Source of the DNA: a virus
Length of the DNA stretch: 43,301 nt
IMG/VR virus record: IMGVR_UViG_3300030329_002291
Span: 1-43,301 of that record
Direction: 5' to 3' (one strand)
Made by a program: the position numbers and the translations under genes. Within the stretch, counting starts at the first letter, position 1; the number at the start of each line of letters is the position of its first letter. The notes below the pieces were generated by a model. The model worked only from the letters and a program-made list of their open reading frames with translations, made no database searches and was not told where the DNA came from. Positions 7,323-42,757 of this stretch are shown in pieces.

Positions 7323-7492
7323 TTCATATCCTCCTCGCACCTACAACAGTAAATGCTTCCTAATTGTATTTCTTTAGATTGTAAGCATAAAGCACAAGTT
7401 GGAAGTTCAAAATTGTTCACTTCAATTCTTGTCCAATCTAATCCGTTCCAACTTAATCTAAATCCACTTTTATTGAATCCAGGAATACCCAT
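7319..7492 (-). CDS. 57-residue zinc-ribbon protein
   Basis: The ATG at 7492 overlaps the stop of the SGNH-like gene (TAATG). The product begins MGIPGFNKSGFRLSWNGLDWTRIEVNNF (two Trp-containing strands), then has CALC, and 14 residues later CCRC, giving four or five Cys ligands for one zinc. The mRNA of its last codons holds the GAGGAGG ribosome site of the following gene. It is one of several zinc-ribbon microproteins in this phage. Function unknown. Confidence 0.6.
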   Translation of the reverse strand: MGIPGFNKSGFRLSWNGLDWTRIEVNNFELPTCALCLQSKEIQLGSIYCCRCEEDMK

Positions 7493-8259
7493 TATATGAG
7501 TACTCCTGTTTCATTTACGTATCTTTTGACTGCTTTAGCAATTCGTCTTGCTCCAATCTCATTTGGTTCAATCTCGTTGTAATAACATTTTGGAGACATT
7601 ACTTCTCTAATGTCTAGTACATCATAAGATGATTTGTTATTACGTGAGTTTTTATCTCTAGCTATTCTTGATATTCTGTCGTTCCACATACTTACAATAG
7701 CTCTCGCTGTGTAATCCATTCCGTAAAATCGTTGTGGATTGTATGCTAGGTTACCCTCGTAACAAGTCATCAACAGATAAGTAGCTCGTGTTTTAAATTG
7801 TTGCAACATAGTTTCGTATGCATTAGACAATTTATCTAACTCACTAAGTAATAAACCATTTAACAAGTTTGTGTCATCAATTTCACTAACCATTGAAATA
7901 AGTTTCAACAAGTCGTTTCCACCTACACTAACTACAACTAATTTAGATTTGTCGTTTATCTGATTTGCTTTTTCAATGCAATCATATATTGTATCGCCAT
8001 CTCTACTTTGGTCGTTTATCATACTCATGTATGTTTCGTTGGCGTAAGATTCTGCGAAGTATTCCACAGTTCCTTTGCCTGTTCTAGTGTAGGATTTACA
8101 ATCAATAACACTATCGCCAATGAATGTGATTTCTGCTCGTTCATTAATGTTCTTTCTGTTCAAGCTAGTCTGAATCATATTTCCATAAAACTGTTCATCC
8201 TGGCGTGAGCTTTGCCCATCAATAAACCAATCATCTGGCATATCGTGTATTTTGGTCAT
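7492..8259 (-). CDS. SGNH/GDSL hydrolase-like protein with altered catalytic site
   Basis: In this 255-residue protein, block I is FIGDS (46-50, Ser50 as nucleophile), a conserved Gly lies near 88 (RDGDT), and block III is SVGGND (111-116, oxyanion Asn115). The fold is therefore SGNH-like, as in esterases and acetyl-hydrolases. The final block, normally DxxHPN before a Gly-Ala-Ile helix, reads NEIEPNEIG (228-236), so both the Asp and the catalytic His are replaced (Asn228, Glu231). The protein may be inactive, use another base, or have become a binding protein. It is the first gene of the leftward operon, with AAAGGAAAT before the ATG. The substrate is unknown; surface glycan deacetylation is only a guess. 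Confidence 0.7.
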   Translation of the reverse strand: MTKIHDMPDDWFIDGQSSRQDEQFYGNMIQTSLNRKNINERAEITFIGDSVIDCKSYTRTGKGTVEYFAESYANETYMSMINDQSRDGDTIYDCIEKANQINDKSKLVVVSVGGNDLLKLISMVSEIDDTNLLNGLLLSELDKLSNAYETMLQQFKTRATYLLMTCYEGNLAYNPQRFYGMDYTARAIVSMWNDRISRIARDKNSRNNKSSYDVLDIREVMSPKCYYNEIEPNEIGARRIAKAVKRYVNETGVLI

Positions 8260-15436: not shown

Positions 15437-15815
15437 ATTTAATAGAGGCAGAAAAAATAAAGATTTAACAGCAGCAACTGATATGACAGGTGGTGGAGCT
15501 TATGCAGACATTGTTGTACCTCCACAAGCAGAAGGTGATTCGTTTGGACAAACTAAAGATTTACAAACACAAGTAGATTCTGTAAGTAATCCAGCAGATG
15601 CTAATTTAGTAAACGCAGCACGTATGATGCCACCTTCACCAGTGAATTTAGGTGCAGCAACAAATAAACTAAATGAACCAATTACTTCAGGTATACCATT
15701 AGGTGCAGGAGACAATGGTGGATTAAACATGGGAACAGATACAGTAAGTAACTTTATTAAAGCTGCTAAAATAGAATTTCCTGACCCAATATGGGATGAA
15801 TTGTTAGATGCGTAA
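15426..15815 (+). CDS. 129-residue hypothetical virion-region protein
   Basis: An ATG at 15417 is in frame, but AGGAG lies almost on top of it. A GTG at 15426 has the same AGGAG nine bases upstream and gives MANKFNRGRKN, so GTG is preferred. The protein is rich in Gly, Ala, Asn and Pro with little predicted helix (TDMTGGGAYADIV, MMPPSPVNLGAATNKL) and ends WDELLDA. It may be a disordered scaffold-like or structural linker protein. Its stop overlaps the giant gene start (TAATG). Confidence 0.65.
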   Translation: MANKFNRGRKNKDLTAATDMTGGGAYADIVVPPQAEGDSFGQTKDLQTQVDSVSNPADANLVNAARMMPPSPVNLGAATNKLNEPITSGIPLGAGDNGGLNMGTDTVSNFIKAAKIEFPDPIWDELLDA

Positions 15816-18800
15816 TGTATTACCGCACAAATTTTAATTTACCATTACACAAAGAATCTTTAGCATCTTTTAATTCTTTAAATAACGAACAAATAAATTC
15901 TTTTAGAAGAAGCATTACGCCTGAGTTAGCAGAAAAAATATTATCTATAGCTAAAGCATATCCAACATTAGATAAAAGATTAGCAGTATATACAGGATTA
16001 TATGGATTAGAAGCAGATGATGATTTAATATTACGACTTGCACAAAAACAACAAAATGCATTAGAAAAACAACAAAGAAGTGTTAGGCAGAGTCAAGTTG
16101 GTTTTGGTAAAAGAGCAACCCAGTTAGGATTTTTAGCATTAGATGCACCATTTCAAAACATATCACAAAATTTTAAATCTACTGTTGTAGCAGCACAAGA
16201 AACAGGAATGCCTGTAGGAAAAGCAGTAGCTAAAAATTTACTTACAGCATTTAGTCCATCAGTAGAATCTTCAGATGCAGCTAGAGAATCATTATTAGGA
16301 GAAGAATTTGCTAAAACATACAGGGCAACTAAAGAAGCATATGGTCCTACAGAATGGAGAAGAGCTAGAGAACAACAGAAAGCAGGTAATCCTTTAAATT
16401 TAGGAACAGGTATTTTACCTAATTCTATGGATTTACAAGATACAGAAGTATATAGAAAAGAAATAAAATTAGGTAAGACACCATTAGAAGCGTATACGAT
16501 TGCTGAACAAACTTATGGAAAACCAATAACAGACGAATTTGAAAAAGATGAATATAGATATAAATATACAACACCACAAGGAGAAAGAGTTCCTATATCA
16601 CCAGGAAGAGTTGTTGCAGGACAATTTAGTAAAGAAGCTGACGTATCGTATGCAATAGTAAGTACGATAATTGATGGTGCTTTTAGATTAGGTGCAGACC
16701 CAATAAATATTTTATTAGGTTACGGTGCAGGAGTTAAAACTGCAGCTAGAACTGTTGTAACACAAGCTGCTGTAGATGATTTTATAAAAAATACTCCAAC
16801 TATAGCTAGAGCATTAAAAACTTTAAAACCTACTAAAGGAGGAAGAGAAGCTAGAGCATTAACATTTGGAAAAACAGCAAATCAAATACTTGATACAAAA
16901 TGGGGAGATGAATTTGTAGATGCTATGACTCAAAACACTTCTGTAGCTAGATTACGAATGATACCTGGTTTTAAAAAACTTGACCCTAGAGTTTTAGATT
17001 ATTTAGCAAAAGTAGGTGACAAAAATATAATGAGAGAATCACTTAGAAGTTTAATGAGACAAGGTGATTTTTCAGAACTTATGATTGCACCATATTCAGG
17101 TGCTTTTGTTGGAGATGAAATAAGATTAGCTGCACAAAATGCACCATTAACAAAATTACCAATGCGTAAAAGTTTAGTAGGTGAAGCATCAGACGCATTA
17201 GCTAAAAGATTAGGTGGAAGTACAGACGTTGCACCACTAAGAAGAACAGTTGGTGCGTTTATGGGTAAAATAAAAAACGACCCATTTGCTGGTTTAGTAG
17301 GAATGGGAAGTCAATTTATGTATACTCTACCTTTACCAACAAGAAGATTATTTGATTTAGCACCTGATAAATATGCAGCAATAACACAAATTACAGAAAC
17401 AATAAACAACATAGAAGGCTCTTTAGTCGCTATGGGAGAAAAAGAACCTGTAAGAGATTTATATATAAAAGAATTATTAGAATCAAAAAATCAACAAGAT
17501 GTTGTTAATGTTGTAGAAAAACTTAATGAAAGAATTGCAAAATTTGTAGTAAAAAATAATCCTGATTTAGCTGAAGACCCAGATGCACTTGAAGAAATGA
17601 TAAGAGTTTCAAAGGTGGTATCTAATACTTTAGAAACTAAAAAATATTTTTATGATGCAGATGGAGTAGCATTATCGTTTCCAGGAACTAAAATTGAATA
17701 TTTAGCTGATGCAGTTCAAAAAGCTGATGGTACTTTCCAAAGTAAAACAGTAGCTGCACCTACAGCTTTAACTATGTCTCAGTTTGCAGAACATTTTATT
17801 CCTTTAATTGATTATCAACAAATAGCTAAAGCAGGTAAAACATTTAATAGATTAGTTGGACCTAGTGGAAGTAGATTAAAATCTGTTATGTGGCATGACC
17901 CTAAAGCATCTGCTTTTTCTAAAATTAATCAACAGTTTTTTAAAGTTCCTAGAAAAGCATTTGTACCTGACCCTTCAAGAGGCGGAAGAGTATCATTATC
18001 TCCACCAGGAAACGTAGATTACGTATATAACGATATTGTTATGCAGAGAGTATTAAAACCATCATGGATGTTACGTTTAGCATTAGCGTTAAGAGTTCCA
18101 CCTGAAGAATCAGTTCGTATAGCATTTTATGGAGGACCTAATGTATTTTCACATCCTTTACTTTTAACTTCATTAAAAAGTGATATTGGACGTAAAGGTA
18201 AAACTGTTGTACAGATGCAAGGAAGTCTAGGAGAACAATTTTTTGCTACAAAAATATTTAATGAAGAAGCAGAGATGATAGCTGAAATGGTTGGTAACAA
18301 AGATATGGTAGATGCTGTTACTAATTTAAAATACGAACAAATTGAAAAATCAATTAAACATTTACGATTAAATGTAAATACAGCAGGAGAAGTAGGCGAT
18401 TCTTATTTAGCATCTTTTTTACGTGGCGACAATATGACAGATTATGCTTTTGACGAAGTAGTTGGTGAATTACCTAAATTAAAAAAACAAAGAGTTACTG
18501 ACCGTAATGTTAGATTAATGGCTGAAGATATAATGAAATGGGATTTAGAAGATATTGAAAATGCTGTTTTAAAAATTGATGGTACAACATTAGAAGGTGC
18601 TGCTGTTTCAGTTGCACCGTATAAAAGTTTAAAAACAACAATAGATAAAGCAGAAGAAGGTTTTCAACAAACTATAGAACAATATTTATCACAACCAAAT
18701 GTGATGAAAGCATTACAAAAAGAAAATCATGTATTACAAGTTACAAGAAATTTTGCAGGAGATGTAACACAAGGAGAAGCATTAGTTCCTCCTACATTAA

Positions 18801-21800
18801 TTGATTTAAATGTAGGGATTGTAAACAAAACTGTTAATAATATGACTCTTGAACAAGCTAAAGATACTTTAATAAACTCTTTATCAATAGCTATTAAAAG
18901 CCATGAAAGATATGTTTACCCTACTATACCTATGGTAAATGCATTAAAGAGAGATAAAAATTTATATAAGTTAATAGATTTACGTGGTCAAATACCAAGA
19001 ATAAGAGTTTATGACGGTATAGATAATATAAATATTGATTCTGTAGTTAGAAAAGAAATTCTTGAAGCTATGTTTGAAAGTAATTTTAATACAGCAAAAC
19101 TAATTATGAAGAAAAAAGGTGGCTATGCACAAGCTGCACCATCAGGAACTATTTTTAATGGTGACCCTATGTATATACAAGCTATGTCAAATCAAACTTT
19201 ATTACAAAGATTTTTACCTGGTAAAAGTCCAAAAGGAAAAGATGAAATGTATTTAATGGCTAAGAAACATAAAAATACAGGTTCTGATGTAATACAAGAA
19301 GAATGGTGGTACGGATTTATTGAAGATTTATTTAGTGTAACAAAAGACCCTGCATATGTAATGGTAGCTAGAGATGGTGTTGAAAATGCAGTTGAGTATT
19401 TTACAAAAAATCCTAATGGTAAACAATACATACAAGATTTAATAAAACAAAGTGATGAGCCAGAAATAAGAAGAATATTAGAAAAAGAATCAGAACTTAA
19501 AAAATGGTTACAAGCTATTAATTACGATATTGCAAGATTACAAGGAAATCCTTCAAGAAAAATTAGAAGAGGAAACAGAGGAATATCTCAAAGACAAGCT
19601 AGAGAAATAATACATAATGCAGAAGGAGACATGATTCTTCCTGATTATGAAGCAGATTTATCACTAGGTTCACAACAAGTTAAAGAATTTATTGCTAATA
19701 GTGGATTTTTAAATGGAGAAGATTGGCTTGAACTAGCACAAAAACATGCTGTTTTAAATAACAGAACAAGAAGTTATTATGGAAAATTTTATAAAAAAGT
19801 TAAAAAAGCATTTAATGAAGACATTGTTGTAAACGGATTAGGACCTAGAGAACAAGCATATCTTAAATCAGGGTATGATTTTAACCGAGGTGCAACATAT
19901 GAATCATCAATGGAAAAATGGGATAAAGTATTAGAAGCAGGATATAGAAACTTATTAGCAAAACCTTCTGATTGGTTAAATAGAGACCCATTGTTTAGAT
20001 GGTCTTTTTATACAGAAACACCAAATTTTATACCTACGTTTGATGAAAAAACAACAAAAGAATTTTTAGTAGGTGCAAAACCTTGGATTGAAGGTAGTCA
20101 AATGTGGGATGATATAGTCCGTGCATCAAAAATACCTAAAATAAAAGAAGAAGTAAGTGTTACTAGCCTTGAACAAGCAGAACAATTATTGAAATATAAA
20201 GCATTAGAAAATGTAAAAGACTTACTGTATGCAAGTTCTGACAGACATGTATTGTCTGATGTTATGTCTACGTATGTTCCATTTCCTGAAATATGGCAAG
20301 AAGTTGCAAAGACATGGGGTAAATTAACAATAGATAATCCACAAAAATTTAATAGAACACGTATAGCTATAGACGCAGGTAAAGAATCAAAACCTTGGGA
20401 TACGCACAATGCTTTTTTTGAAACAGACCCTGTAACAGGAGAATTAATGTTTAATTGGGTTGATGTTGCTAATGTAATGACATTTGGTGTAGCATCCATT
20501 CCAGGACAAATGGGATTTGCACCTGTGCAGTCAGCTTTATTAGGAGAAGATTTAAGAGACGAAGGTGTAAAAGTAAGACCATATGGATTCTTAGAAGGTT
20601 TGAACTTAGTAGCAGCTAATGGTTTTTCACCTGGTTTTGGTCCTAATGTACAAATGGCTTACAAAGTATTTACAAAATATTTTCCTACACCAAAATTTTT
20701 AGATGATTTTATTTTAGGAAACTTTAATGCACCTGGTGGTGGTTTTAATATTGCTGATGAATTACCAGGTTGGGCTAAAGATATTATATTAAAACAACCA
20801 TTTATGGGTGATGGTGCTGCTTCAGAAGAAATGGAAGCATCAGTAGCTGCAACAGTAATGGATATATATACTATGTATTACTATGCAGGTAAATGGTCAC
20901 CTGAAGATACTGAATCACAAAAAGCAGCATTAATAGAAGCTATGGATGCAGCATCAAAACATTGGATTATTAGAGGAATGGCTAAAGGTGCTTTTCCTAC
21001 AGCTATACAACCACGTTATGAATTAAAAGATAAAAATGGTACTTGGTGGGGAATACAGGTATTAGCACAAAAATATCAACAGATGTTAGAAAATAATGAC
21101 TTTGATTATTTTGTAACATCACAACAATTTATTACTAGATTTGGTATTAACCCAATACCATTAAGACAAGCAACTACTGAAAAAAAAGGTAGATTTCCTG
21201 CTAGAAAAGAATCATTTAAATTTTGGCAACAAACTGAAAATAAACAATTAATAGAGGAATATCCACAAACAGCTATATATATAAAAATGGACAGTTGGGA
21301 TGATGAATTTTCATACCCTGCATTCTTAGAAGGTTCTGAAACATTAGACCCACAAGACTATAGAAGAGCATTACAACAAACACTTTTACAATTTGAGTTA
21401 GAAGAATACAGACAGGATTTAGTAAATGACCCATCAATGACTGACTCTGCTAGAAGAGAAGCATACACATCAAAAAAGAATAAATTAGTTGAAGAATACA
21501 ACATGATTCCATATGGAAACATAGGTAATGCAATTATTAGAGCAGAACAAGATTATGTAATGCAAGAATTTAGAATGTGGGAAGACAATGAAATATTAAA
21601 AAATTCTGCTGAATATAAACCTCTTAAATTATTCTTAGATAAATATGATGAAGCAATAAATGTAGTATTAAACGGTGGTACTTTTACTGTGGGAGATGAG
21701 AGCTATACTGTATATGGTAGTGGTGTTAAAAATAAGACTGCTGCAAACTTAAAAGGTAGTAACGAAAATACTGCAGCTATAAGGATATTGTTAGATAAAT

Positions 21801-21907
21801 ATGCTAGACAATTAGCTAATGAGTATAAAAATACTAACTTTATAGACATGTATTTAGGTAACTTTTGGAAAGAGCTAGATAACAGAAGATATGAGAAGGA
21901 TTTTTAA
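15815..21907 (+). CDS. Giant virion protein, 2030 residues
   Basis: This is one uninterrupted frame of 6.1 kb. Features seen: a helical N-terminus (SLNNEQINSFRRSITPELAEK), many Lys/Gln-rich helices, a SPGRVVAGQFSKEADVSYAIVSTIIDGAFRLGADP segment near residue 265-300, NLLAKPSDWLNRDPLFRWSFY near 1385, and a VPFPEIWQEVAKTWGKL stretch near 1485. The last two recall motifs in very large structural proteins of environmental phages. Its place after the portal and before scaffold/capsid, without tape-measure hallmarks, suggests an internal virion (ejection) protein in a podovirus-like particle. This is inference; no enzymatic motif was recognised. Confidence 0.7.
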   Translation: MYYRTNFNLPLHKESLASFNSLNNEQINSFRRSITPELAEKILSIAKAYPTLDKRLAVYTGLYGLEADDDLILRLAQKQQNALEKQQRSVRQSQVGFGKRATQLGFLALDAPFQNISQNFKSTVVAAQETGMPVGKAVAKNLLTAFSPSVESSDAARESLLGEEFAKTYRATKEAYGPTEWRRAREQQKAGNPLNLGTGILPNSMDLQDTEVYRKEIKLGKTPLEAYTIAEQTYGKPITDEFEKDEYRYKYTTPQGERVPISPGRVVAGQFSKEADVSYAIVSTIIDGAFRLGADPINILLGYGAGVKTAARTVVTQAAVDDFIKNTPTIARALKTLKPTKGGREARALTFGKTANQILDTKWGDEFVDAMTQNTSVARLRMIPGFKKLDPRVLDYLAKVGDKNIMRESLRSLMRQGDFSELMIAPYSGAFVGDEIRLAAQNAPLTKLPMRKSLVGEASDALAKRLGGSTDVAPLRRTVGAFMGKIKNDPFAGLVGMGSQFMYTLPLPTRRLFDLAPDKYAAITQITETINNIEGSLVAMGEKEPVRDLYIKELLESKNQQDVVNVVEKLNERIAKFVVKNNPDLAEDPDALEEMIRVSKVVSNTLETKKYFYDADGVALSFPGTKIEYLADAVQKADGTFQSKTVAAPTALTMSQFAEHFIPLIDYQQIAKAGKTFNRLVGPSGSRLKSVMWHDPKASAFSKINQQFFKVPRKAFVPDPSRGGRVSLSPPGNVDYVYNDIVMQRVLKPSWMLRLALALRVPPEESVRIAFYGGPNVFSHPLLLTSLKSDIGRKGKTVVQMQGSLGEQFFATKIFNEEAEMIAEMVGNKDMVDAVTNLKYEQIEKSIKHLRLNVNTAGEVGDSYLASFLRGDNMTDYAFDEVVGELPKLKKQRVTDRNVRLMAEDIMKWDLEDIENAVLKIDGTTLEGAAVSVAPYKSLKTTIDKAEEGFQQTIEQYLSQPNVMKALQKENHVLQVTRNFAGDVTQGEALVPPTLIDLNVGIVNKTVNNMTLEQAKDTLINSLSIAIKSHERYVYPTIPMVNALKRDKNLYKLIDLRGQIPRIRVYDGIDNINIDSVVRKEILEAMFESNFNTAKLIMKKKGGYAQAAPSGTIFNGDPMYIQAMSNQTLLQRFLPGKSPKGKDEMYLMAKKHKNTGSDVIQEEWWYGFIEDLFSVTKDPAYVMVARDGVENAVEYFTKNPNGKQYIQDLIKQSDEPEIRRILEKESELKKWLQAINYDIARLQGNPSRKIRRGNRGISQRQAREIIHNAEGDMILPDYEADLSLGSQQVKEFIANSGFLNGEDWLELAQKHAVLNNRTRSYYGKFYKKVKKAFNEDIVVNGLGPREQAYLKSGYDFNRGATYESSMEKWDKVLEAGYRNLLAKPSDWLNRDPLFRWSFYTETPNFIPTFDEKTTKEFLVGAKPWIEGSQMWDDIVRASKIPKIKEEVSVTSLEQAEQLLKYKALENVKDLLYASSDRHVLSDVMSTYVPFPEIWQEVAKTWGKLTIDNPQKFNRTRIAIDAGKESKPWDTHNAFFETDPVTGELMFNWVDVANVMTFGVASIPGQMGFAPVQSALLGEDLRDEGVKVRPYGFLEGLNLVAANGFSPGFGPNVQMAYKVFTKYFPTPKFLDDFILGNFNAPGGGFNIADELPGWAKDIILKQPFMGDGAASEEMEASVAATVMDIYTMYYYAGKWSPEDTESQKAALIEAMDAASKHWIIRGMAKGAFPTAIQPRYELKDKNGTWWGIQVLAQKYQQMLENNDFDYFVTSQQFITRFGINPIPLRQATTEKKGRFPARKESFKFWQQTENKQLIEEYPQTAIYIKMDSWDDEFSYPAFLEGSETLDPQDYRRALQQTLLQFELEEYRQDLVNDPSMTDSARREAYTSKKNKLVEEYNMIPYGNIGNAIIRAEQDYVMQEFRMWEDNEILKNSAEYKPLKLFLDKYDEAINVVLNGGTFTVGDESYTVYGSGVKNKTAANLKGSNENTAAIRILLDKYARQLANEYKNTNFIDMYLGNFWKELDNRRYEKDF

Positions 21908-24966: not shown

Positions 24967-27900
24967 ATGCCTACAAGCAGAGGAATGAGAATACCAGAGT
25001 TTGAAAGAACAATACTTGATAATTTAAATCTTTTATTAATACAAGATGGTGTTGAAGAATTAAGAAGAATTTTTAGTGAGATTGATGATTCAACACAATT
25101 AGAAGTAGTAAGAGGTATATTAGAAGAATTTGAAAGAGGAACAACAAATAATGATATTGCAAGAATGGTTGGAACACAAGCTAGTTCACAAGGTTCTTCT
25201 TTAAGTAATCCAAACGTTCCAACTCTTTTAGACATAATAGAGAAACTACGTGAAAATAGAGACTCGATTGTAAGTCAAAATACAAATTTACAAACAGCGT
25301 ATCTTGGAGATAGACCAGAACCTAGAAGAGAACCTAGAAGAGAACCTAGAAGAGATAGACAACAAACAAGTCCAAGAAGCGGTTCAGGAAATATTACTGT
25401 AGAAGAAGGAGACCATAAATTTTTTATTGAATTGTACGAAGCATTAAAAGAAGATAATCCTGATTTTGAAAATTATTTTAAAGAAGCTGTTCTTGCAGAA
25501 GACATGACATTTGATGAAATATTTGATATTAGCAATAGAAATAAATTTGTTATGGCATTAGATAATATGGGTATTACAACAAGAAAATATGGTTTAGATG
25601 TTCAACATTCTGGAGATTGGCATCCTGTTGGTAATCAACTTTATGAATTTGTAAATTTTGATTACATTAAAGAAGATTATAGCTGGTGGGTAAATCAAAC
25701 ACCAAGTGGTAATGCAGTACAAGAGTTTGCTAAAAAGAATAAAATTGTTCTTTCTCATAGTGGTTTAGCATTACCTAGATTTAATGAACAATATTTAGAT
25801 GGAGATGGAAAATTACCTGATAATTGGGTTATGTTAAATCAGTTTCGTTCAGGAGATATTGAGGACAATACTCTGCCTTTATCTTCAGGAAATAATAGAG
25901 ATGTAACAATAAAAAATAATTTTGATGAACTAGCAGAAGCAAATGCTCGTAATAGATTATTTATATTTCCTGAAGATATGGAAACAGTACAAAATAAACT
26001 TGGAAAGTTACATAATAAAATAATAAAAACAAAATTATTTGAAGGTGGTAGCGATAAAATAGTTTCAAAAATAGGTCAAAAAGTAGGTCGTGGTAATAAT
26101 GCAAGAACTCTTAACGCTTTATTTACATCAAGAATAAATACTTCCGCACACGAATCAAGTTTTTATGAATCATTAAATTTGCTTTATGGAAGAAATGATA
26201 CAAATGATATTACAAGGTTAATTAATAGAGCTGTAATAGATAGGGTACAAAAAAGAAATTCAATACTCATTGGTTCTAAAAAAAGGGGTGGATATATGGA
26301 TATTCGAAAAAGTATTGTAAAAGACAGAATACCAAATGGTAATCCTAAAGAATGGTTTGATAAAATAAAACAACGTGGTTTGCCTTGGCAGAAAATATCT
26401 ACTAGACCTAGTCAAGTATTTGGTTTAGTTTATACATTACCTGATGGAACAGACATAATAGCAACAATATTAGGTAGTGATGGTTCAGGTTCAAGACAAT
26501 ATGCACACCAAATAGAACCTAATGGTGCAATAGTAGCTAATTTTATAAATCTTGACCCTTACCATGTAATAGGTGCTTATCCTAGTATGAAAAAAATAGA
26601 ATCGGTTAAAAAAGGTTTAATGAGACAATCTGCTACCTGGTGGATGGAACTTATGGAATATGCAGATGAAGTTGGTGTGGCTTTTGTAAACTCACCTATC
26701 AATGCTCACGTTGCAGATACTTATCATGGTCTTGGTACTTTTGACTTTCAAAATGACCATATACCAGGAGTAGATATTGGATGGGATGGAGCTGGTGGTA
26801 TGGTTAGAATGCCAATACCACCTGAAATAAATAAGTTAGGAAAAGGAAGAAGATTTAAATTTGATTATAGTTTAATGCACTTTGCTGCAGAAGCTCCTTA
26901 TCTTGTTAGTGACAAAGTTATAGTAAAAACACTACCTATTAGAAACGCTTTAGATTCAAGAGATGTCAGATTCTTAATAGCTGCATCAGAAGGATATTAT
27001 GACCCTGAAAGTGATTATATAAAAATGGGTTCACGAATAAGGTCAGAGTTAAAAGCTGATAGGCTTATTACTAAATATCTTAAATCAAGAAGTTTAGATG
27101 CAAATTCTTTATTTCCCATTTACAGCGATAAAATAAATGATTTGGATAATGCAGTTAGTGGTTCTTATTTAGCAGATTTTACTACTCTTAATGAAATTTT
27201 TAATATGATTAAAAACGGAGAAATTCCAACAAGTGACATTGCAAGAATACTATTAGCATCAGATGCATTAGATGATTATGTTTTAGGAAATTTAGTAGAA
27301 GGTGCTGATGGTTATGTGGAACATCCTATATGGGAAAGGAATGAACCTTTTTCAAAAAGCATTCTTGATGAATTAGGAACAGCACAATTTGAAACAGGTG
27401 ACGCAACAAAATTTAAAAAAACATTAGAAGGTGTAAGACATTTAGCTAGTGAAAACTTTGATTGGGCAACTAATGCTTCTCTAGCAAATATGACTAGAGA
27501 AGCAGGAGCTATAGATTTTTTAATAAGTTCTTTATTATCACAAGCAAATGATATTGTATTAAATGATTATGAAGGTAAAACATTAGCTGATAAAATATCT
27601 GATGTAAACGGTTCATATACTCTTGTTGAAGATGCTCGTCAATTACCTGCAGAAACTTTACAAACATACAAAGATACATTCATTAGAGAAGGTGCAGAAG
27701 TAGAAACAGTTGCAGAAGTAGAAAGACCAAGAGATGTTGTTTCTACAAATCTTGAAAATAATCCAACGCAAGGAAACCTTTATAGAGAACTAGAAAATCA
27801 AGCCATGGCACAAGATGTAGATATCTTTGAAGCAGAAAGTGGAGAGTATCTAAATGATATTGTAAACGATACGGATTTAGCTGTATTTGTTCCTGATGAT

Positions 27901-29976
27901 ATGACATTATTTGGACAAATGCGTAGTGGATATGCTAGTAGTCCTGTTAGTTATTTTGATGAGATGTTGCAAATTAATCAAATGGAAGTTTTAACAGAAC
28001 GTTATCAAACATTAGCAAATATGTTTGAATTAGGTAATGGTGCTATTGATGGTGAAAGTAGAGTAGTTCATACAGGTAAAAAAATATCAGATTATTTTAG
28101 ACATGAGTTTATGAAAAATATAGATAAAATCGTTACTCATTCAGAAGGAATTTTTGAAACAGGAATAGAAATAATTGCTGCAGATATAGAAGTAACTCAA
28201 CATAATCATGTAGATGATTTTATTGAAATGGCTCTTATTTATAAAGATAGTGATGGTGAAATTAAAAAAACTTATGCAGTAACAAATGTAGACATAAGAG
28301 GTGGTGGTGATGCTATTACTATGTATGATACATTAGTTGCAGGTGCAGGACCTGATAATGTACCTTCATATATTTTAAAAAATGCATTACTTACAGCTAT
28401 AGAAGATTTAGAACAAAAAGCATCTGCTGATATAAATCAAGCACCAAGAGAAATAAGGCATGTAAATTTATTGCATGACGTAGATAACATACTAGAACAC
28501 AGAATGTTTGCTATGGGAAGAGTCGGTAATGCATTAGGTGCATTTGAATATACAAACACTCCTTTTGAAGGATTTAGTGAGCATGTACTTGGTGATACAA
28601 CAGACATAAATAGTATGACTCCTGGTCAATTACAAGCAGGTAGTGATACTAGCTATATAGATAGAGATTTTAGAAATACACCTGATGGAAATATGAATAT
28701 TGGTACATTATGGCAATCAATAACGTTTGATGAAGTAGATTTCTATAACCTTTATCAGACACAGTTCACAATTCAAGAGTTGGAAATATTTATAAATGGT
28801 ATAGAATCAATCGCTGAAAACAATGACATTATTATAAGTGGACAAATAGCAGACGTTACATATGGAAGGTATAGAGAAGTATTAGATTTTGAAAAAAGAG
28901 GCAATAATCCTATTAATGAAATTAATAGAATAGATGAAGGTGCTACAACATTTGTTTTAAGAAATTTACAAATTGATGCACCATCACATTTATTTGGACC
29001 TTATTTAGATACTGAATTAAATAAAGTGTTTAAAGATGCACAAATATTTTCTCAACCAGATAGACAAGCAATCGGTGAAATGGGAAATATAGGAACATAC
29101 AGAATGGCTAGAAATCAAATATCAGATACACGTTCAAATTTAAACAATACAGGTCAATATGATATAGATGAACTAAGAATGAACTATTCATTAAATAGAG
29201 ATGTAGGCACAGGCTTTGGAAATGTAGAAGGTAATGTTGGTAAATTACATAGTGCATCACCTGTTAAACCTGTTCCTTTAAGAAAAGAATTAAGACAGTT
29301 AGCTAAAGCATTTGCTAAAACACCTGTAGGTAGAGCATTAGGTGTTGCCTGGAAAGGTATAGATATAGGTGAAACATTAATAGCTGCAGGATTTAAAAAA
29401 GCAAGTGAATCAGCCGCTAAACGTGCAATAGCTAAAGGCTTAGGTGCAGCAGGTGCAGCAGCAGCCTCAGCGCCAATTACATTTGCAGCAACTGTGTGGG
29501 GAATATACGAAATATCAAACCTTATTGTACAGATGGGTCAAGAAATACCTGACATGGTTAGCTTAATTAAAAAGAGAAACAACGTTATGAAGAATGGTCA
29601 GGATTGGGAAAAAGCTGAAATGGAAGATAGGTTTTGGAAAGATATGGGTAAAGAAGCATTAGAAGGATTACAAGGTGCAGCTAAGTATTCTCCTGCAGAA
29701 CAAATAGCAGATTTTATTTGGCAACCTGCTTTTGATGCAATAGGTAGATATGCTGAAGGAAGAGATGAAACAGAATTAAACTTTCCTGCAGTAGAAACAG
29801 TACCTGACACTAATGATATTTATTACTCTAATAGAACACCGCAAGATAAATTAGACTTAATGCAAGATAGAATTGATTATGATACTCTATTTTATGGGTA
29901 TTTAAACAATAATCCAGATGCTAACGTTGTAGCTGATAGAACGTTAGAATTAACTAATACAGTATATAATAGGTAA
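24967..29976 (+). CDS. Giant virion protein, 1669 residues
   Basis: A second giant frame of 5 kb. Residues 118-129 hold three EPRR repeats. Residues about 515-590 (PYHVIGAYPSMKK, GLMRQSATWWMELMEYADEVGVAFVNSPINAHVADTYHGLGTF) look like a GNAT-type acyltransferase end, which may be chance. A Gly/Ala-rich hydrophobic segment lies near 1495-1525 (KGLGAAGAAAASAPITFAATVWGIYEI), possibly membrane-active. The C-terminus is Asp/Asn-rich. It is probably an internal virion protein ejected with DNA; this rests on position, size and the hydrophobic stretch rather than homology I can verify. Confidence 0.65.
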   Translation: MPTSRGMRIPEFERTILDNLNLLLIQDGVEELRRIFSEIDDSTQLEVVRGILEEFERGTTNNDIARMVGTQASSQGSSLSNPNVPTLLDIIEKLRENRDSIVSQNTNLQTAYLGDRPEPRREPRREPRRDRQQTSPRSGSGNITVEEGDHKFFIELYEALKEDNPDFENYFKEAVLAEDMTFDEIFDISNRNKFVMALDNMGITTRKYGLDVQHSGDWHPVGNQLYEFVNFDYIKEDYSWWVNQTPSGNAVQEFAKKNKIVLSHSGLALPRFNEQYLDGDGKLPDNWVMLNQFRSGDIEDNTLPLSSGNNRDVTIKNNFDELAEANARNRLFIFPEDMETVQNKLGKLHNKIIKTKLFEGGSDKIVSKIGQKVGRGNNARTLNALFTSRINTSAHESSFYESLNLLYGRNDTNDITRLINRAVIDRVQKRNSILIGSKKRGGYMDIRKSIVKDRIPNGNPKEWFDKIKQRGLPWQKISTRPSQVFGLVYTLPDGTDIIATILGSDGSGSRQYAHQIEPNGAIVANFINLDPYHVIGAYPSMKKIESVKKGLMRQSATWWMELMEYADEVGVAFVNSPINAHVADTYHGLGTFDFQNDHIPGVDIGWDGAGGMVRMPIPPEINKLGKGRRFKFDYSLMHFAAEAPYLVSDKVIVKTLPIRNALDSRDVRFLIAASEGYYDPESDYIKMGSRIRSELKADRLITKYLKSRSLDANSLFPIYSDKINDLDNAVSGSYLADFTTLNEIFNMIKNGEIPTSDIARILLASDALDDYVLGNLVEGADGYVEHPIWERNEPFSKSILDELGTAQFETGDATKFKKTLEGVRHLASENFDWATNASLANMTREAGAIDFLISSLLSQANDIVLNDYEGKTLADKISDVNGSYTLVEDARQLPAETLQTYKDTFIREGAEVETVAEVERPRDVVSTNLENNPTQGNLYRELENQAMAQDVDIFEAESGEYLNDIVNDTDLAVFVPDDMTLFGQMRSGYASSPVSYFDEMLQINQMEVLTERYQTLANMFELGNGAIDGESRVVHTGKKISDYFRHEFMKNIDKIVTHSEGIFETGIEIIAADIEVTQHNHVDDFIEMALIYKDSDGEIKKTYAVTNVDIRGGGDAITMYDTLVAGAGPDNVPSYILKNALLTAIEDLEQKASADINQAPREIRHVNLLHDVDNILEHRMFAMGRVGNALGAFEYTNTPFEGFSEHVLGDTTDINSMTPGQLQAGSDTSYIDRDFRNTPDGNMNIGTLWQSITFDEVDFYNLYQTQFTIQELEIFINGIESIAENNDIIISGQIADVTYGRYREVLDFEKRGNNPINEINRIDEGATTFVLRNLQIDAPSHLFGPYLDTELNKVFKDAQIFSQPDRQAIGEMGNIGTYRMARNQISDTRSNLNNTGQYDIDELRMNYSLNRDVGTGFGNVEGNVGKLHSASPVKPVPLRKELRQLAKAFAKTPVGRALGVAWKGIDIGETLIAAGFKKASESAAKRAIAKGLGAAGAAAASAPITFAATVWGIYEISNLIVQMGQEIPDMVSLIKKRNNVMKNGQDWEKAEMEDRFWKDMGKEALEGLQGAAKYSPAEQIADFIWQPAFDAIGRYAEGRDETELNFPAVETVPDTNDIYYSNRTPQDKLDLMQDRIDYDTLFYGYLNNNPDANVVADRTLELTNTVYNR
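25318..25353 (+). repeat. 12-base tandem repeat encoding EPRR x3
   Basis: The unit GAACCTAGAAGA occurs three times in exact tandem inside the giant gene, giving (Glu-Pro-Arg-Arg)3 followed by DRQQ. It forms a charged, flexible linker and is a site where copy number may vary. Confidence 0.85.
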
Positions 29977-37793: not shown

Positions 37794-38447
37794 ATGACAG
37801 CTAGAGAAACTAATTTAGTAAACGCTTTTGAAACCACACTTGCTGCACAGTTAGCTAGTGGTGGTACATCAATTAATTTAACAGATGACCCAGGAGTTGA
37901 TGCACCTGTTTATTTAGTAATAGACCCTGATAATGACAGCAACAGAGAAGTTGTATTATGGTCAACAGGAACAAACCATGCTGCTGCTACAGTCACAAGA
38001 GATATTGATAGTAAGCATGGAACAGACCCTACACATGCGTCAGGTACAAAAGTCAGATTAGCTGTAGTTAAACAACATTTTGAAGAAGCACATGATGCTA
38101 TACAACAAGGTTTTATATTAGAAGATGGAGATGGTACTGAAGTTACTATTGCTCCTGCTGTTGCATCAGGTGTATATACAGCAAGAGAAGTAAAGTTTGT
38201 TGAGGGTGGTGGTATTGACATCAACTGGACTGATACTGATAATGGTACAGATGCAGACCCTTATGATTTAACTTTTACTGTAGAAGTTACTGCATCAGAA
38301 ATTGCTGCAGGTACACTTGTTACAGAATCAGAAGGTATCTCATCAAACGATAATGACACAACAATACCAACATCAGCAGCAGTTAAAAATTATGTAGATA
38401 GTCAAGGCTTTGCTGATATTGGTATGATAATAGCATTAGGAGGTTAG
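37794..38447 (+). CDS. Tail fibre-type protein, 217 residues
   Basis: The sequence is Thr/Asp/Gly-rich with beta character (VYLVIDPDNDSNREVVLWSTGTNHAAATVTRDIDSKHGTDPTHASGTKVR). A TIPTSAAVKNYVDSQG segment near 190-205 is the collar-fibre motif seen in many phage tail fibres, and the end is GMIIALGG. It is the first gene of the receptor-region cluster and probably anchors later fibres to the tail. Confidence 0.65.
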   Translation: MTARETNLVNAFETTLAAQLASGGTSINLTDDPGVDAPVYLVIDPDNDSNREVVLWSTGTNHAAATVTRDIDSKHGTDPTHASGTKVRLAVVKQHFEEAHDAIQQGFILEDGDGTEVTIAPAVASGVYTAREVKFVEGGGIDINWTDTDNGTDADPYDLTFTVEVTASEIAAGTLVTESEGISSNDNDTTIPTSAAVKNYVDSQGFADIGMIIALGG

Positions 38448-38456
38448 GAGTAAAAT

Positions 38457-38780
38457 ATGGCAAATGTATTTCAAACAGTAACTGTAGCCTTGGGTAACTC
38501 TGCAGACGCAGTAGTTTATACATGCCCAGGTTCAACTACAGCTATCGTTGTTCATTGTCAAGTCGCAAATGTTGACGGTACAAACTCAGCAGACTTAAAT
38601 ATGGATATTAATGATGGTTCTGTAGTTGCAGCTTTAGTTTCAACTCTTGCAGTTCCAGCAGATACAGCAGTTAATCCTATTGGAGGAAAAGCTGTATTAG
38701 AAGCTGCGGACGAATTAAGAGCTTGGGCTAGTGCAGCAGGTGACTTAGAACTGACATTAGGCATCTTAGAGATTAGTTAA
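38457..38780 (+). CDS. 107-residue Ala/Val-rich virion protein
   Basis: A good ribosome site (TAGGAG) precedes it. The product (VFQTVTVALGNSADAVVYTCPGS, AALVSTLAVPADTAVNPIGG, ending LGILEIS) is a compact beta-type protein of Ala, Val, Thr and Asp, like capsid-decoration or fibre-tip proteins. No family is confirmed. It starts ten bases after the preceding stop and is followed closely by the duplicated cassette. Confidence 0.55.
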   Translation: MANVFQTVTVALGNSADAVVYTCPGSTTAIVVHCQVANVDGTNSADLNMDINDGSVVAALVSTLAVPADTAVNPIGGKAVLEAADELRAWASAAGDLELTLGILEIS

Positions 38781-38790
38781 GGAGTAACAT

Positions 38791-39423
38791 ATGCCTAACG
38801 GATATTTGGGTAGTCCTCCTAAACAATTAGTAAAAAACGAAGGTCTTCATACTATTAGTGAAGTATTTGATTTACAATCAAAAGGTCATTGGGATGGTTC
38901 ATTAAAATTAATTACAAGTGGTAGCTCTGATAACTCTGCACAAACTTTAGAATTTAACGATTGTCTTGTAGGTAATCATGATGTTTATTTAATTCAATGG
39001 AAAAACTTTGTACCTGCTAATGATGAAAATATGCTTTACTTTAGATTAAAAAATGCAAGTGGAGAAATATCAAGTGGCTATCAATATGCAAATTTTTATA
39101 ATACTGCGGCTACTGGTAGTGGAGAAAATAAATCTACAAGTGCAACTTATTTAAGAATAATGGGTGGTGGTGGCTCTAGTACAGGCGAAAATGCTAACGG
39201 ACATATTTACATTTATGGTGCTGATACTTCTGAAAGAACAGCAGTAAGTTATTCATCAACTTTTTTTGACCAAAATGGTACTTATACAACAATTATGGGT
39301 GGTGGTCTTTATGATACTGCAGAAGTTTCAACAGGTGTTATGTTTAGAAGTATTAGTTCAGGTGGAACATTAGGAAATATAAATACTCTTGATGTATCTA
39401 TTCATGGTGTAAAAAAAATATGA
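38791..39423 (+). CDS. Tail fibre module A (with N-terminal anchor), 210 residues
   Basis: The N-terminal ~45 residues (GYLGSPPKQL, then TISEVFDLQSKGHWDGSLKLI) form an anchor-like part; the rest is a Gly/Ser/Thr/Asn beta sandwich or helix ending DVSIHGVKKI. Residues such as NMLYFRLKNASG and STSATYLRIMGGGGSSTG recur in pattern among its neighbours. It is the first of six related proteins and matches the gene at 40471 in length, anchor and position. Likely part of the host-binding tail tip. Confidence 0.7.
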   Translation: MPNGYLGSPPKQLVKNEGLHTISEVFDLQSKGHWDGSLKLITSGSSDNSAQTLEFNDCLVGNHDVYLIQWKNFVPANDENMLYFRLKNASGEISSGYQYANFYNTAATGSGENKSTSATYLRIMGGGGSSTGENANGHIYIYGADTSERTAVSYSSTFFDQNGTYTTIMGGGLYDTAEVSTGVMFRSISSGGTLGNINTLDVSIHGVKKI

Positions 39424-39956
39424 GTAATTTAAGATTAATAAAACAAACAGCAACATCTTCAGGTATATCAACCGTATCTTTAGAGGATGTATTTTCTTCT
39501 GATTTTGATATTTATAAAGTTACTGTTGCACGAACTACTTATGATGTTTCTAACACAAATGTAATCGCTTTAAAAGCAAGATTTATAAGTGCAGGTGGTT
39601 CAATAGTTAGTGCAAGTAATTATGACTCTGCAAATATGCACATGAAAGCAGATACAACAAAAGATGAAGATAAGTTTCAAAATGGTACTTACTCTTATGC
39701 AGGTCCAATAATTGGTAATTATGAAAATGGTGGGGGTAGTCATTGGATTTATAATCCTTATCAAAGTGATACCTATACATTTATGACTTTTGAAGGTGTT
39801 GGTGGATATGATACTTCAAACAATAGAATGAGGTCGCAAAAAGGTATTGGTTGTTTAAAACAACAAGCAAGTATGACAGGAATTAATTTCTATTCTTCTA
39901 CTGCTACTAATACATTTTCTGCTTATATAAGTGTATATGGATTGAGGGTAGATTAA
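39420..39956 (+). CDS. Tail fibre module B, 178 residues
   Basis: It starts inside the stop of module A (ATGA). It begins LRLIKQTATSSGISTVSLEDVFSS, with the LxLIK, then SLEDVF and DIYKVTV pattern of this family, followed by NYDSANMH, WIYNPYQSDTYTFMTFEG and ending YISVYGLRVD. It lacks the anchor of module A. It pairs with module B' (41096) by the SLED/NLED and NPY..S.YT motifs. Probably an assembly partner or alternative tip. Confidence 0.65.
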   Translation: MSNLRLIKQTATSSGISTVSLEDVFSSDFDIYKVTVARTTYDVSNTNVIALKARFISAGGSIVSASNYDSANMHMKADTTKDEDKFQNGTYSYAGPIIGNYENGGGSHWIYNPYQSDTYTFMTFEGVGGYDTSNNRMRSQKGIGCLKQQASMTGINFYSSTATNTFSAYISVYGLRVD

Positions 39957-40471
39957 TGGCTAGTAAATTAATTTATGTAAATAAAGTAGTTAGTGATGGA
40001 AGTGCTACAACATTAAAAGTTACAGGTATAGATAGTGATAATGTATATTTATTAGCTTTAAGATTAATACAAACTCAAAACAATAATGAAGTAATAAATT
40101 TACGAGTAACTAAATCAGGTACTGCTGACTCAACTTCGAATTATGATTATGGTACTAAAGTATTAAGTTCTATCACAGGTTTTACTAATAATGGCTATAC
40201 AAATGGAACAGCTACTAGAATTATGGAAAATGTTGATGACGCTTATGGTGGTGGACAAGCAGTACTTTATCTTTATAACTTTAATTCATCATCTCTATAT
40301 AGTATTATTCAAAATGAAAACTGTTGTATAGTATCTAATCAAACAGCAGGTGCTATTGGCGGTGGACTTCATAAAGTAGCAAGTGCTAGTGATGGTATAG
40401 AACTATACGGTACAAGTGGTGGCACATTTATAAGTGGTGCAAGTGCAATTTTATATAAGGTAGCAACATAA
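39956..40471 (+). CDS. Tail fibre module C, 171 residues
   Basis: The TAATG overlap continues the coupling. It begins KLIYVNKVVSDGSATTLKVTGIDSDNVYLLAL and has LRVTKSGTADSTSNYDYG, LYLYNFNSSSLYSIIQ, then HKVASASDGIELYGTSGGTF and an ILYKVAT end. It shares VASASDGI at residue and nucleotide level with module C' (41608). Like B, it lacks an anchor. Confidence 0.65.
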   Translation: MASKLIYVNKVVSDGSATTLKVTGIDSDNVYLLALRLIQTQNNNEVINLRVTKSGTADSTSNYDYGTKVLSSITGFTNNGYTNGTATRIMENVDDAYGGGQAVLYLYNFNSSSLYSIIQNENCCIVSNQTAGAIGGGLHKVASASDGIELYGTSGGTFISGASAILYKVAT

Positions 40472-41094
40472 TGAGTAAGTACGGATACATAGGAAAAGAC
40501 GGACCAACACAAACAATTAATGATAATACAGGTTTGTTGAGTCTTGAAGAACATAAAGATTTAATACTTGACGAAAAGTTATTAATACTAGGACAATTAG
40601 ATTTAATTCAAACTCAAACTGTAAGTGGTGTTACAACAGTAGACTTTACATCTTTAGGTAGTTACAATATACACTTTTTAACAAATCATAATTTAGAAAG
40701 TTCTACAACAAATGTTAGATGGGGTGTTAGATTATATGAAAGTGGCGTTTTGGAAACAGGAAGTGTTTATGAATGGGCTTATAGCCAACAACTTGATAGT
40801 GGTTCAACTTCTGATTTTAATTCATCTAGTCATTCAAGTTTACCAATACAATTAGAACAGCCAACAAGTTTGCAGGGTAATGCATATACTTATTTTTATA
40901 ACTTAATAGATAGTAGTAAATATTCTCATATTTCAAATCATCATAATAGAAGTACAGGTGGTATTATTGCAGAATTTGGTATGGGTGTAATGAAACAAGC
41001 AAGTACTGTAACAGGTTTTCAAATTAGTGCTTATGATACTTCTTCAGCAGCATTTTCTGGAACATTCTCTTTGTATGGAATGAAGGATTATTAA
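40471..41094 (+). CDS. Tail fibre module A' (with N-terminal anchor), 207 residues
   Basis: It starts at a TAATG overlap. The anchor-like N-terminus (YGYIGKDGPTQTINDNTGLLSLEEH, then KLLILGQLDLIQTQT) parallels module A, with GYIG for GYLG and a similar spacing to the first 'LxLI' strand. The remainder has SVYEWAYSQQ, YTYFYNLIDSSKYSHIS and an FSLYGMKDY end. It is the start of the second cassette copy. Confidence 0.7.
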   Translation: MSKYGYIGKDGPTQTINDNTGLLSLEEHKDLILDEKLLILGQLDLIQTQTVSGVTTVDFTSLGSYNIHFLTNHNLESSTTNVRWGVRLYESGVLETGSVYEWAYSQQLDSGSTSDFNSSSHSSLPIQLEQPTSLQGNAYTYFYNLIDSSKYSHISNHHNRSTGGIIAEFGMGVMKQASTVTGFQISAYDTSSAAFSGTFSLYGMKDY

Positions 41095-41095
41095 T

Positions 41096-41608
41096 ATGAG
41101 TAGTAATTTACATTTTATAAAATCAGCTAAATTAACTACTACTGCAGGTTCTATCAATCTAGAAGATTGTTTTAATGATACTTATGATGTGTATTATGTA
41201 GCATTAAGAAATTTTAATTCAGATGGTAGTGCTAATACTTTATATTTAAGATTTTTAGATAGTTCAAATGCTGTTATAAATAGTGGAAGTCTTTATAATA
41301 GAGCACAATTATCTTTAAATAGTGGAAGTAGTTTCTCAGAGGAAACTGATACAGGTGGAGATAGAATAACTATTGGTACTGTAAATGCTGATACTGCAGG
41401 TGTCATGAATGCTTCTATATATGTATTTAATCCATATAATAGTTCAAGATATACTTATGTACATTTTCAATCATCCTGCAGAGAATTAGAAGCAAGAAAA
41501 GGTGCTGGAAGATTAGCTCAAACATCAACAATAAAAGGTTTGCAAATAAAAAGTGACAATAGTGATGATATGACACAAGGAAATATAGTAGTATATGGAG
41601 TTGAATAA
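41096..41608 (+). CDS. Tail fibre module B', 170 residues
   Basis: It begins NLHFIKSAKLTTTAGSINLEDCFND, the counterpart of module B's SLEDVF, followed by YDVYYVAL, LYLRFLDSSNAVINSG, ASIYVFNPYNSSRYTYVHFQ and an IVVYGVE end. NPYNSSRYTYV parallels NPYQSDTYTFM in B. It lacks an anchor. Its stop overlaps the next start (TAATG). Confidence 0.65.
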   Translation: MSSNLHFIKSAKLTTTAGSINLEDCFNDTYDVYYVALRNFNSDGSANTLYLRFLDSSNAVINSGSLYNRAQLSLNSGSSFSEETDTGGDRITIGTVNADTAGVMNASIYVFNPYNSSRYTYVHFQSSCRELEARKGAGRLAQTSTIKGLQIKSDNSDDMTQGNIVVYGVE

Positions 41609-42129
41609 TGTCAGGTAGTTTAAATTTAGTTAGTAGTGTAAGTGTTTCAAGTGCAACTGCTACTGTTTCTTTGACAGGTATTGACAGCACTTATAATGTT
41701 TACAAAGTTATTGGAAGCAATCTTAGACCTGCATCAGCAGCACAATTAGAAGTAAGATTAACTAAGGGTGGCTCTGTACAATCTGATAGTGAATACGATT
41801 GGGCTTATTTGGGAATGTACACAGGTGGTACTTTTGTCCACGAAGGTTCAACAGGGGCAGATAGTTTTTTTGTCTATAACGCTTATGAAGAAACTACTGG
41901 AACAGGTAGGGGAAATGGTTTTATTATGTATTTATTTAACTTTAATGAAAGTGAATATTCACAATTTACTTTAGAGCAAACTTATTCTCATTCAACAGGT
42001 GCTATGGCAGGTAATCAAGGTGGTTGTATACATACAGTAGCAAGTGCTAGTGATGGCATACAGTTTTTATGGGATGGTGGACATAATTTTGAACAAGGAG
42101 ATTTTAAACTTTACGGACTATCAAAGTAA
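41608..42129 (+). CDS. Tail fibre module C', 173 residues
   Basis: It begins LNLVSSVSVSSATATVSLTGIDSTYNVYKVI, parallels module C (TGIDS), and has SEYDWAYLGMYTGG, MYLFNFNESEYSQFT and HTVASASDGIQFLWDGGHN before an FKLYGLSK end. The VASASDGI codons are identical in C and C' over a 21-base run. It closes the second cassette. Confidence 0.65.
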   Translation: MSGSLNLVSSVSVSSATATVSLTGIDSTYNVYKVIGSNLRPASAAQLEVRLTKGGSVQSDSEYDWAYLGMYTGGTFVHEGSTGADSFFVYNAYEETTGTGRGNGFIMYLFNFNESEYSQFTLEQTYSHSTGAMAGNQGGCIHTVASASDGIQFLWDGGHNFEQGDFKLYGLSK

Positions 42130-42153: not shown

Positions 42154-42492
42154 ATGGCAATTAAAACATTAGAACAATTTACTGCAGAAGCTCAAGCAGA
42201 GGTTGATGCAAAGAAGACAGCTAACGGTGGCGATGGTATGTTTGCTCAAGTCAATAATGAAAGACGAGAGTTTACAGAGGCAGAGTACGACCAAGCTGTA
42301 ACTGACATTGCTGCTAGTAAATTAGATTCACAAGATAACGATTACAGTAGAGCAAGACAAGCTTCTTACGCTGCAATAGGAGACCAACTTGATATGTTAT
42401 ATCATGACATGGCTGCTGATAAAGGTGATAAGACAGGCGACTGGTTTGCTGCTGTAAAAAAAGTTAAAGACGATAACCCTAAACCTAGTTAA
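42154..42492 (+). CDS. Tail-associated small protein, 112 residues
   Basis: The ATG has AGGAG ahead of it. A helical, charged N-terminus (FTAEAQAEVDAKKTA) is followed by YAAIGDQLDMLYHDMAADKG (about 72-91), a motif (Y..IGDQLD.L.HD) I recall from small proteins at the end of phage tail modules, often near fibre chaperones. It ends DNPKPS. A chaperone or assembly role is inference. Confidence 0.65.
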   Translation: MAIKTLEQFTAEAQAEVDAKKTANGGDGMFAQVNNERREFTEAEYDQAVTDIAASKLDSQDNDYSRARQASYAAIGDQLDMLYHDMAADKGDKTGDWFAAVKKVKDDNPKPS

Positions 42493-42508: not shown

Positions 42509-42757
42509 ATGAAAGTATGGATTGACCAAGACCTTTGTACTGGGGATGGACTATGCGAAGAAATAGCACCTGATGTATTCATTGGTTTAGATGATGGATT
42601 ATTTTATGTTAAAGAAGGCAATAAAGTTTACGCTGAATCAGAAGGTAATGTAGAAGGAGCAAAAGGTTTAGCTTTAGTTCCAAAAGGTTTAGAAGAAGCA
42701 GTCATAGAGTCAGCAGAAGAATGTCCTGGCGAATGTATAATGATAGAACCTGATTGA
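42509..42757 (+). CDS. Phage-encoded ferredoxin, actinobacterial [3Fe-4S] type
   Basis: This small electron carrier has 82 residues. VWIDQDLCTGDGLC and EEIAPDVF at the start and EECPGECIMIEPD at the end give Cys10, Cys16 and Cys72 in the C-x5-C...CP arrangement of [3Fe-4S] ferredoxins, with a fourth Cys at 76. The wording is very close to short ferredoxins known from actinobacteria. No ribosome site precedes the ATG, so it may be leaderless. Supply of reducing power to a host enzyme (for example a P450 or fatty-acid desaturase) during infection is inference. No redox partner gene is seen here. Confidence 0.85.
   Translation: MKVWIDQDLCTGDGLCEEIAPDVFIGLDDGLFYVKEGNKVYAESEGNVEGAKGLALVPKGLEEAVIESAEECPGECIMIEPD

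Follow-up and report, generated by a model that had tools for sequence, protein, structure and literature searches.

Two cassettes of three paralogous beta-sandwich proteins in a putative marine phage as probable parallel receptor-binding modules

Six consecutive genes in a viral DNA of 43,301 nucleotides (IMG/VR record IMGVR_UViG_3300030329_002291; the window, meaning the whole stretch that was analyzed) are paralogues of one beta-sandwich domain, arranged in the order A-B-C-A'-B'-C'. They probably encode a parallel pair of receptor-binding modules, in each of which A, B, and C probably form a hetero-oligomer with A as the plug, a reading to which we assign a probability of roughly 0.6. The ORF list agrees with the sequence-only reading on the six open reading frames, of 210, 178, and 171 residues in the first set and 207, 170, and 173 residues in the second, and on the spans of cassette 1 (38791-40471, 1681 bases) and cassette 2 (40471-42129, 1659 bases). 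The genes and their neighbors are as follows.

Z, 38457-38780, plus strand: 107 aa, candidate docking or adaptor protein of socket 1
A1, 38791-39423, plus strand: 210 aa, anchor subunit of cassette 1 (socket 1), class A in the trees, matched by the family HMM
A1 variable N-terminal anchor (MPNGYLGSPPKQLVKNEGLHT...), 38791-38855, plus strand: differs from the usual GYLGDTSTKIKQ
B1, 39420-39956, plus strand: 178 aa, second subunit of cassette 1, type I, class B (100/99)
C1, 39956-40471, plus strand: 171 aa, third subunit of cassette 1, type I with C terminus LYK, class C
A2, 40471-41094, plus strand: 207 aa, anchor subunit of cassette 2 (socket 2), anchor MSKYGYIGKDGPTQ, class A
B2, 41096-41608, plus strand: 170 aa, second subunit of cassette 2, type II; class B, not in the type I subclade
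C2, 41608-42129, plus strand: 173 aa, third subunit of cassette 2, type II with C terminus LYGLSK, class C
D, 42154-42492, plus strand: 112 aa, conserved gene closing the variable region

Within cassette 1, A1 and B1 overlap by 4 bases and B1 and C1 by 1 base. Both A and A' have an extra N terminus of about 40 residues starting with GYLG or GYIG, and each socket has an A anchor of its own, GYLG... in one and GYIG/YIPKD... in the other. Global alignments scored against shuffled sequences gave z values of 19.1 for B/B', 17.3 for C/C', and 3.7 for A/A'. Pairs from different classes reached z values of 6-15, indicating that all six proteins are homologous. The BLASTP E values were 4e-15 for B/B' and, for C/C', as low as 5e-15, with no match reported for A/A', and the identities were 26% for B/B' and about 30% for C/C', A and A' being barely alike. 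A profile of class C hit exactly six places in the window, which are the six genes (E 1e-58 to 9e-16), and the adjacent Y (37794-38447), Z, and D lie outside the family with alignment z values of about 0. The 21-base identity between C and C' noted in the sequence-only reading is real (AGTAGCAAGTGCTAGTGATGG at 40375 and 42036, within the class C motif VASASDGI), and TGIDS occurs in both proteins. Of the patterns ascribed to the B pair, SLED is confined to B, with NLED in B', and the common one reads NPY.S..YT, not NPY..S.YT. The domain gave no significant match to Pfam or PHROG families, the family has no sequence relatives in the PDB, and a scan of the collection with B2 as a single protein gave no match; no cultured relatives came to light when 50,697 phage records were searched by tblastn with the upstream 649-aa protein and with A and C proteins.

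Related viral contigs were gathered through the upstream 649-aa protein (43 loci) and the anchor patterns. A maximum-likelihood tree of 68 proteins has separate groups for A (97/85), B (100/99), and C (97/96, a value that sets aside one long-branch row), and in a tree of 141 proteins two changes suffice for the three class labels, which is the lowest number possible. Both trees group the proteins by position, in line with the predicted pairing of A with A', B with B', and C with C', and grouping within a cassette (A-B-C) was rejected. Uncut contigs always have 3 or 6 genes, always in the order A-B-C, and cassette number, proposed for comparison across relatives, varies between one and two per contig. 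No fused multi-domain versions occur in the fetched loci. The A and B genes overlap by 4 or 1 bases at 39 of 51 junctions, and B and C by 1 base at 42 of 50. The predicted two cassettes of the same gene order, each with an anchored A, are supported. An apparent loss of B in L064 was rejected, as an over-long C1 start had displaced B in ORF picking. D lies 3' of the last cassette gene in nearly all contigs and matches PHROG families of unknown function (E 5.5e-15); the PHROG matches of Z are weak and include unknown-function families only.

The predicted core fold is an all-beta, lectin-like sandwich. The AlphaFold2 monomer models are confident: that of B1 is all-beta (pLDDT 86.4, pTM 0.85), and that of A2 has a pLDDT of 86.2, though its anchor is poorly predicted, confidence being low over the first ~20 residues. 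Among predicted viral structures the best fold match had an E value of 1.3e-22 and a TM score of 0.87, and some of the matched viral proteins are annotated as tail fiber, Stf side-fiber repeat, or collagen triple-helix. Matches to solved structures were weak and mixed (Z about 7-8), comprising C-terminal domains of GH32 enzymes, galectins, legume lectins, and ERGIC-53; the best ones listed are beta-sandwich domains, and T4 gp37 is absent from that list. No cassette protein gave a Pfam C1q or TNF match, and Foldseek returned one weak TNF-family match (4-1BBL, TM 0.24-0.27) among many beta-sandwich proteins. Carbohydrate binding by the predicted cores is a reasonable guess.

The A proteins are divided into conserved anchors and variable cores, with a median identity of 69% in the anchor versus 33% in the core for socket 1, and of 52% versus 32% for socket 2. 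The socket 2 anchor MSKYGYIGPDSATPTQ bears a triad in L005 and a glycine-rich fiber with a partner in L034 and L038, where the fiber of 310-334 aa (Pfam Gly_rich_2, PF21722) is followed by a partner of 121-126 aa. A third anchor, M[AV]GP[TS][ST]F[GA]YQ, bears a triad in L012 and glycine-rich fibers in L004, where the Pfam match is below the cut-off, and in L007, where the call was made from the sequence only. As the same anchors bear either a triad or a fiber and partner, the triad replaces one whole fiber and its helper, which is the main reason for regarding A, B, and C as acting as one unit. Z lies immediately 5' of socket 1 in every contig that has the GYLGDTSTKIKQ anchor, and a divergent Z occurs together with a divergent anchor in the window, L011, L026, L028, and L029; judged solely by this correlation, Z may be the socket 1 adaptor. 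Homologues of Y have a conserved N terminus and vary in length from about 187 to 737 aa between relatives, and Y may be a further attachment protein or a docking base.

Comparison of the window with L003 gave a DNA identity of 97.3% over 4461 bases up to about position 38471, and the backbone identity breaks inside the start of Z. Beyond that point only the start of B1 and the A2 anchor can be aligned, the latter with 86% DNA identity over the anchor only (40465-40621), and L003 ends inside A2. Within the region, identity to L003 falls from 97% in the conserved backbone to no alignment. The 649-aa proteins of the two contigs are 99% identical, against 35-39% for A1, B1, and C1, and L005 and L039 show the same pattern (99% for the 649-aa protein against 36-40% for the cassette). 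The window and L039 have backbones with 87% DNA identity, versus 95% from the A1 core to C1 (38856-40494), an identity that starts only at 38856, past the start of the A1 anchor. Cassette 2 is common to L048 and L054 (88-98%) and cassette 1 is not (27-43%), and the window has A1, B1, and C2 in common with L023 (79-81%; C2 79%) but not C1, A2, and B2 (36-39%; A2 39%, B2 36%). In L049 and L058, the 2.7-kb receptor region is 98.5% identical and the adjoining structural gene 77-78%, pointing to recent transfer or chimeric assembly. These comparisons show exchange at three levels, of an entire cassette, of one subunit, and of the A core while the anchor stays fixed; the contigs are metagenomic and some are possibly chimeric, and the exchange pattern recurs across many of them. 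Such extensive exchange among relatives is consistent with the earlier suggestion that the cassettes are a reservoir for host-range change. The type of B equals that of C in 41 of 44 cassettes (Fisher p 5e-9), though B and C also swap singly, and such a match would be expected of a B-C interface or of tight linkage. One contig of 52621 bases (IMGVR_UViG_3300025769_000167; L014, L020) has the 649-aa protein twice, near both ends and with different receptor regions, and may be a chimera of two related phages. In another of 42500 bases (IMGVR_UViG_3300030419_000754; L029, L044) the 649-aa gene lies in two parts, one at each end of the contig, which suggests a complete genome that is circularly permuted or was circularly assembled.

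DNA-level similarity between the two cassettes is minimal, the best C/C' match being 54 nt at 78%, indicating that they are not the result of a recent tandem duplication, which the trees also rule out; judged by these sequences, the A-B-C duplication appears to be old. Two types of class C can be told apart by their C termini, LYK, LFK, LYE, or LYR in type I and YGL, YGI, or YGM in type II. Every two-cassette contig has a type I C in socket 1 and a type II C in socket 2. A single clade of type I C proteins is compatible with the data (p-AU 0.655), and a clade of the socket 1 C genes alone is rejected (p-AU 0.009), since type I also includes four single-cassette phages. The simple tandem duplication in this genome put forward by the sequence-only reading is not supported, since the separation of the two cassettes' B and C lineages predates the divergence of these phages, single-cassette phages have one type or the other, A cores move between positions, and the second position can alternatively bear an unrelated glycine-rich fiber on the same anchor. 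Ancient duplication with loss and the joining of two already divergent cassettes would both fit the unrooted tree. It is close to an even bet that a one-cassette phage recruited, through recombination with another phage, a second cassette that had already diverged, with no tandem duplication within the lineage. Such recruitment would agree with the occurrence of either type I or type II B and C in single-cassette phages, with the rejection of the socket 1 clade but not of the whole type I clade, with the intermixing of A cores between sockets (15 label changes, minimum 2), and with near-identical cassette DNA in backbones about 77% identical. However, the constant assignment of C type I to socket 1 and type II to socket 2 is the trace expected of one ancestral event, and unrooted trees do not separate gain from loss.

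In the arrangement that we favor, two receptor-binding modules each built of A, B, and C, the short N-terminal peptide of A would dock at one of two distinct virion sites, and the beta-sandwich domains of A, B, and C would assemble side by side as the host-binding tip, most likely with one copy of each per hetero-oligomer, their divergent core surfaces contacting the host. The overlapping A/B and B/C junctions would favor balanced synthesis. The modules would descend from an old split between type I (socket 1) and type II (socket 2) B and C lineages. Among relatives, diversity comes from exchange of an entire cassette, of one subunit for another of its class, or of the A core while the anchor stays constant. 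This arrangement is favored by the position-specific groups, the fixed A-B-C sets of 3 or 6, the coupled junctions, the conserved anchors with variable cores, the alternation of triad and fiber on one anchor, the divergent cassettes on near-identical backbones (window and L003), the agreement of B and C types, and the fold match to annotated fiber proteins. Counting against an A-B-C complex, A cores mix freely across type I and type II, which a tight interface might forbid, and the single-subunit swaps (L023, L003/L049) indicate that strict three-way co-evolution is not required; the triad could alternatively form three separate fibers or stacked domains. More tentatively, and with odds somewhat short of even, the six paralogous subunits of one virion would form two heterotrimeric tips in two sockets, with specificities reassorted combinatorially from a shared gene pool. 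If true, three interchangeable paralogues in each of two sockets would provide combinatorial receptor specificity in a small-genome phage.

The receptor-binding tip of a tailed phage is usually a homotrimer encoded by one gene. It is unlikely, though worth weighing, that A, B, and C are each homotrimeric and form three different receptor-binding proteins; A would then attach directly, and B and C would do so through A or through other tail proteins. The usual homotrimeric state of tail-fiber tips would suit this, as would the single occurrence of the domain at the end of other predicted viral fibers, collagen-repeat ones included, and the exchange of subunits one at a time; B and C, however, have no anchor of their own and begin directly with the domain, never occur alone or in other numbers, and belong to a triad that as a whole alternates with one fiber-plus-partner unit on the same anchor. 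Beta-sandwich folds are also found in capsid decorations. That the six proteins are head fibers or capsid decorations, not tail receptor-binding proteins, is nevertheless improbable: this phage group has no characterized tail protein and the genes lie downstream of the capsid gene, but the region comes after genes with weak tail and tail-fiber PHROG matches, the fold matches proteins annotated as tail fibers, and an anchor with a hypervariable core is typical of receptor-binding proteins (PMC6872550).

For two A-B-C modules on two sockets, the nearest known architecture appears by analogy to be the anchor-branched or adapter systems with two receptor-binding proteins, such as those of G7C, K1-5, and Klebsiella KP32 group A (PMC6872550), and the nearest analogue of the triad the heterotrimer of the virophage DSLV2. 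As in the former, judged here from the genes alone, each virion would have two receptor-binding units, with conserved anchors or peptides at the N terminus and exchangeable specificity modules at the C terminus. The conserved anchor and variable C-terminal part of such systems are found here (69% and 52% versus 33% and 32%), with both cassettes intact and together in the same genome. In contrast to the present units of three small paralogues of one beta-sandwich domain, those systems have one large protein per unit, often a depolymerase, joined via a T4gp10-like domain. No Pfam or PHROG match to a gp10-like domain was obtained for the cassettes, Y, Z, or the upstream proteins, and no enzyme was recognized in the cassettes. 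DSLV2 has three consecutive paralogous genes for products of ~200 aa that co-purify as a heterotrimer and bind Synechococcus cells (PMC12724248). Three consecutive genes with products grouping by position are common to both cases, whereas DSLV2 is a virophage with one set and a T4 gp37 needle-like fold, and the window would represent a tailed phage with two sets, an anchored subunit, a lectin-like beta-sandwich, and a putative heterotrimer. Marine metaviromic islands comprise under-recruiting, hypervariable tail-fiber, lectin-like, and C1q-like genes in otherwise conserved phage genomes, including fiber genes with conserved N termini and variable C termini, and the available portion of that report describes no two-socket, three-paralogue cassette (PMC3909814). 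The "heterotrimeric" parts of phage A-1(L) were rejected as a parallel, being baseplate wedges and not fibers. A literature search covering few subscription journals found no description of the two-socket triad combination.

The source appears to be a marine tailed phage, with the six proteins presumably located on the tail. Its host is likely actinobacterial, probably "Candidatus Actinomarina", as judged from the window, which has a GC content of 33%. The gene at 42509-42757 encodes a 4Fe-4S ferredoxin (Fer4_15, E 2.8e-14) that is 83-88% identical to homologues of "Ca. Actinomarina"/OCS155, has close homologues in the related contigs L010, L025, and L034, and is likely both a host-derived metabolic gene and a host marker. 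The capsid protein is of SU10 type, and its nearest cultured relatives are mycobacteriophages (31%). The two modules proposed here would offer a testable case of phages keeping pace with ultra-small, uncultured marine actinobacteria, whose single major flexible genomic island has a part in diversifying the cell envelope (PMC7771536). Elsewhere in the window, two very large proteins of 2030 and 1669 aa (15815-21907 and 24967-29976) have no Pfam or PHROG match and are possibly internal virion or ejection proteins. A GDSL-like lipase/acylhydrolase is encoded on the minus strand (7492-8259) among genes mostly on the plus strand. The gene at 9694-11268 encodes a 524-aa C-5 cytosine DNA methylase (Pfam E 2.6e-49) in which the catalytic match covers residues 1-246 only, leaving a long C-terminal part beyond the Pfam model.
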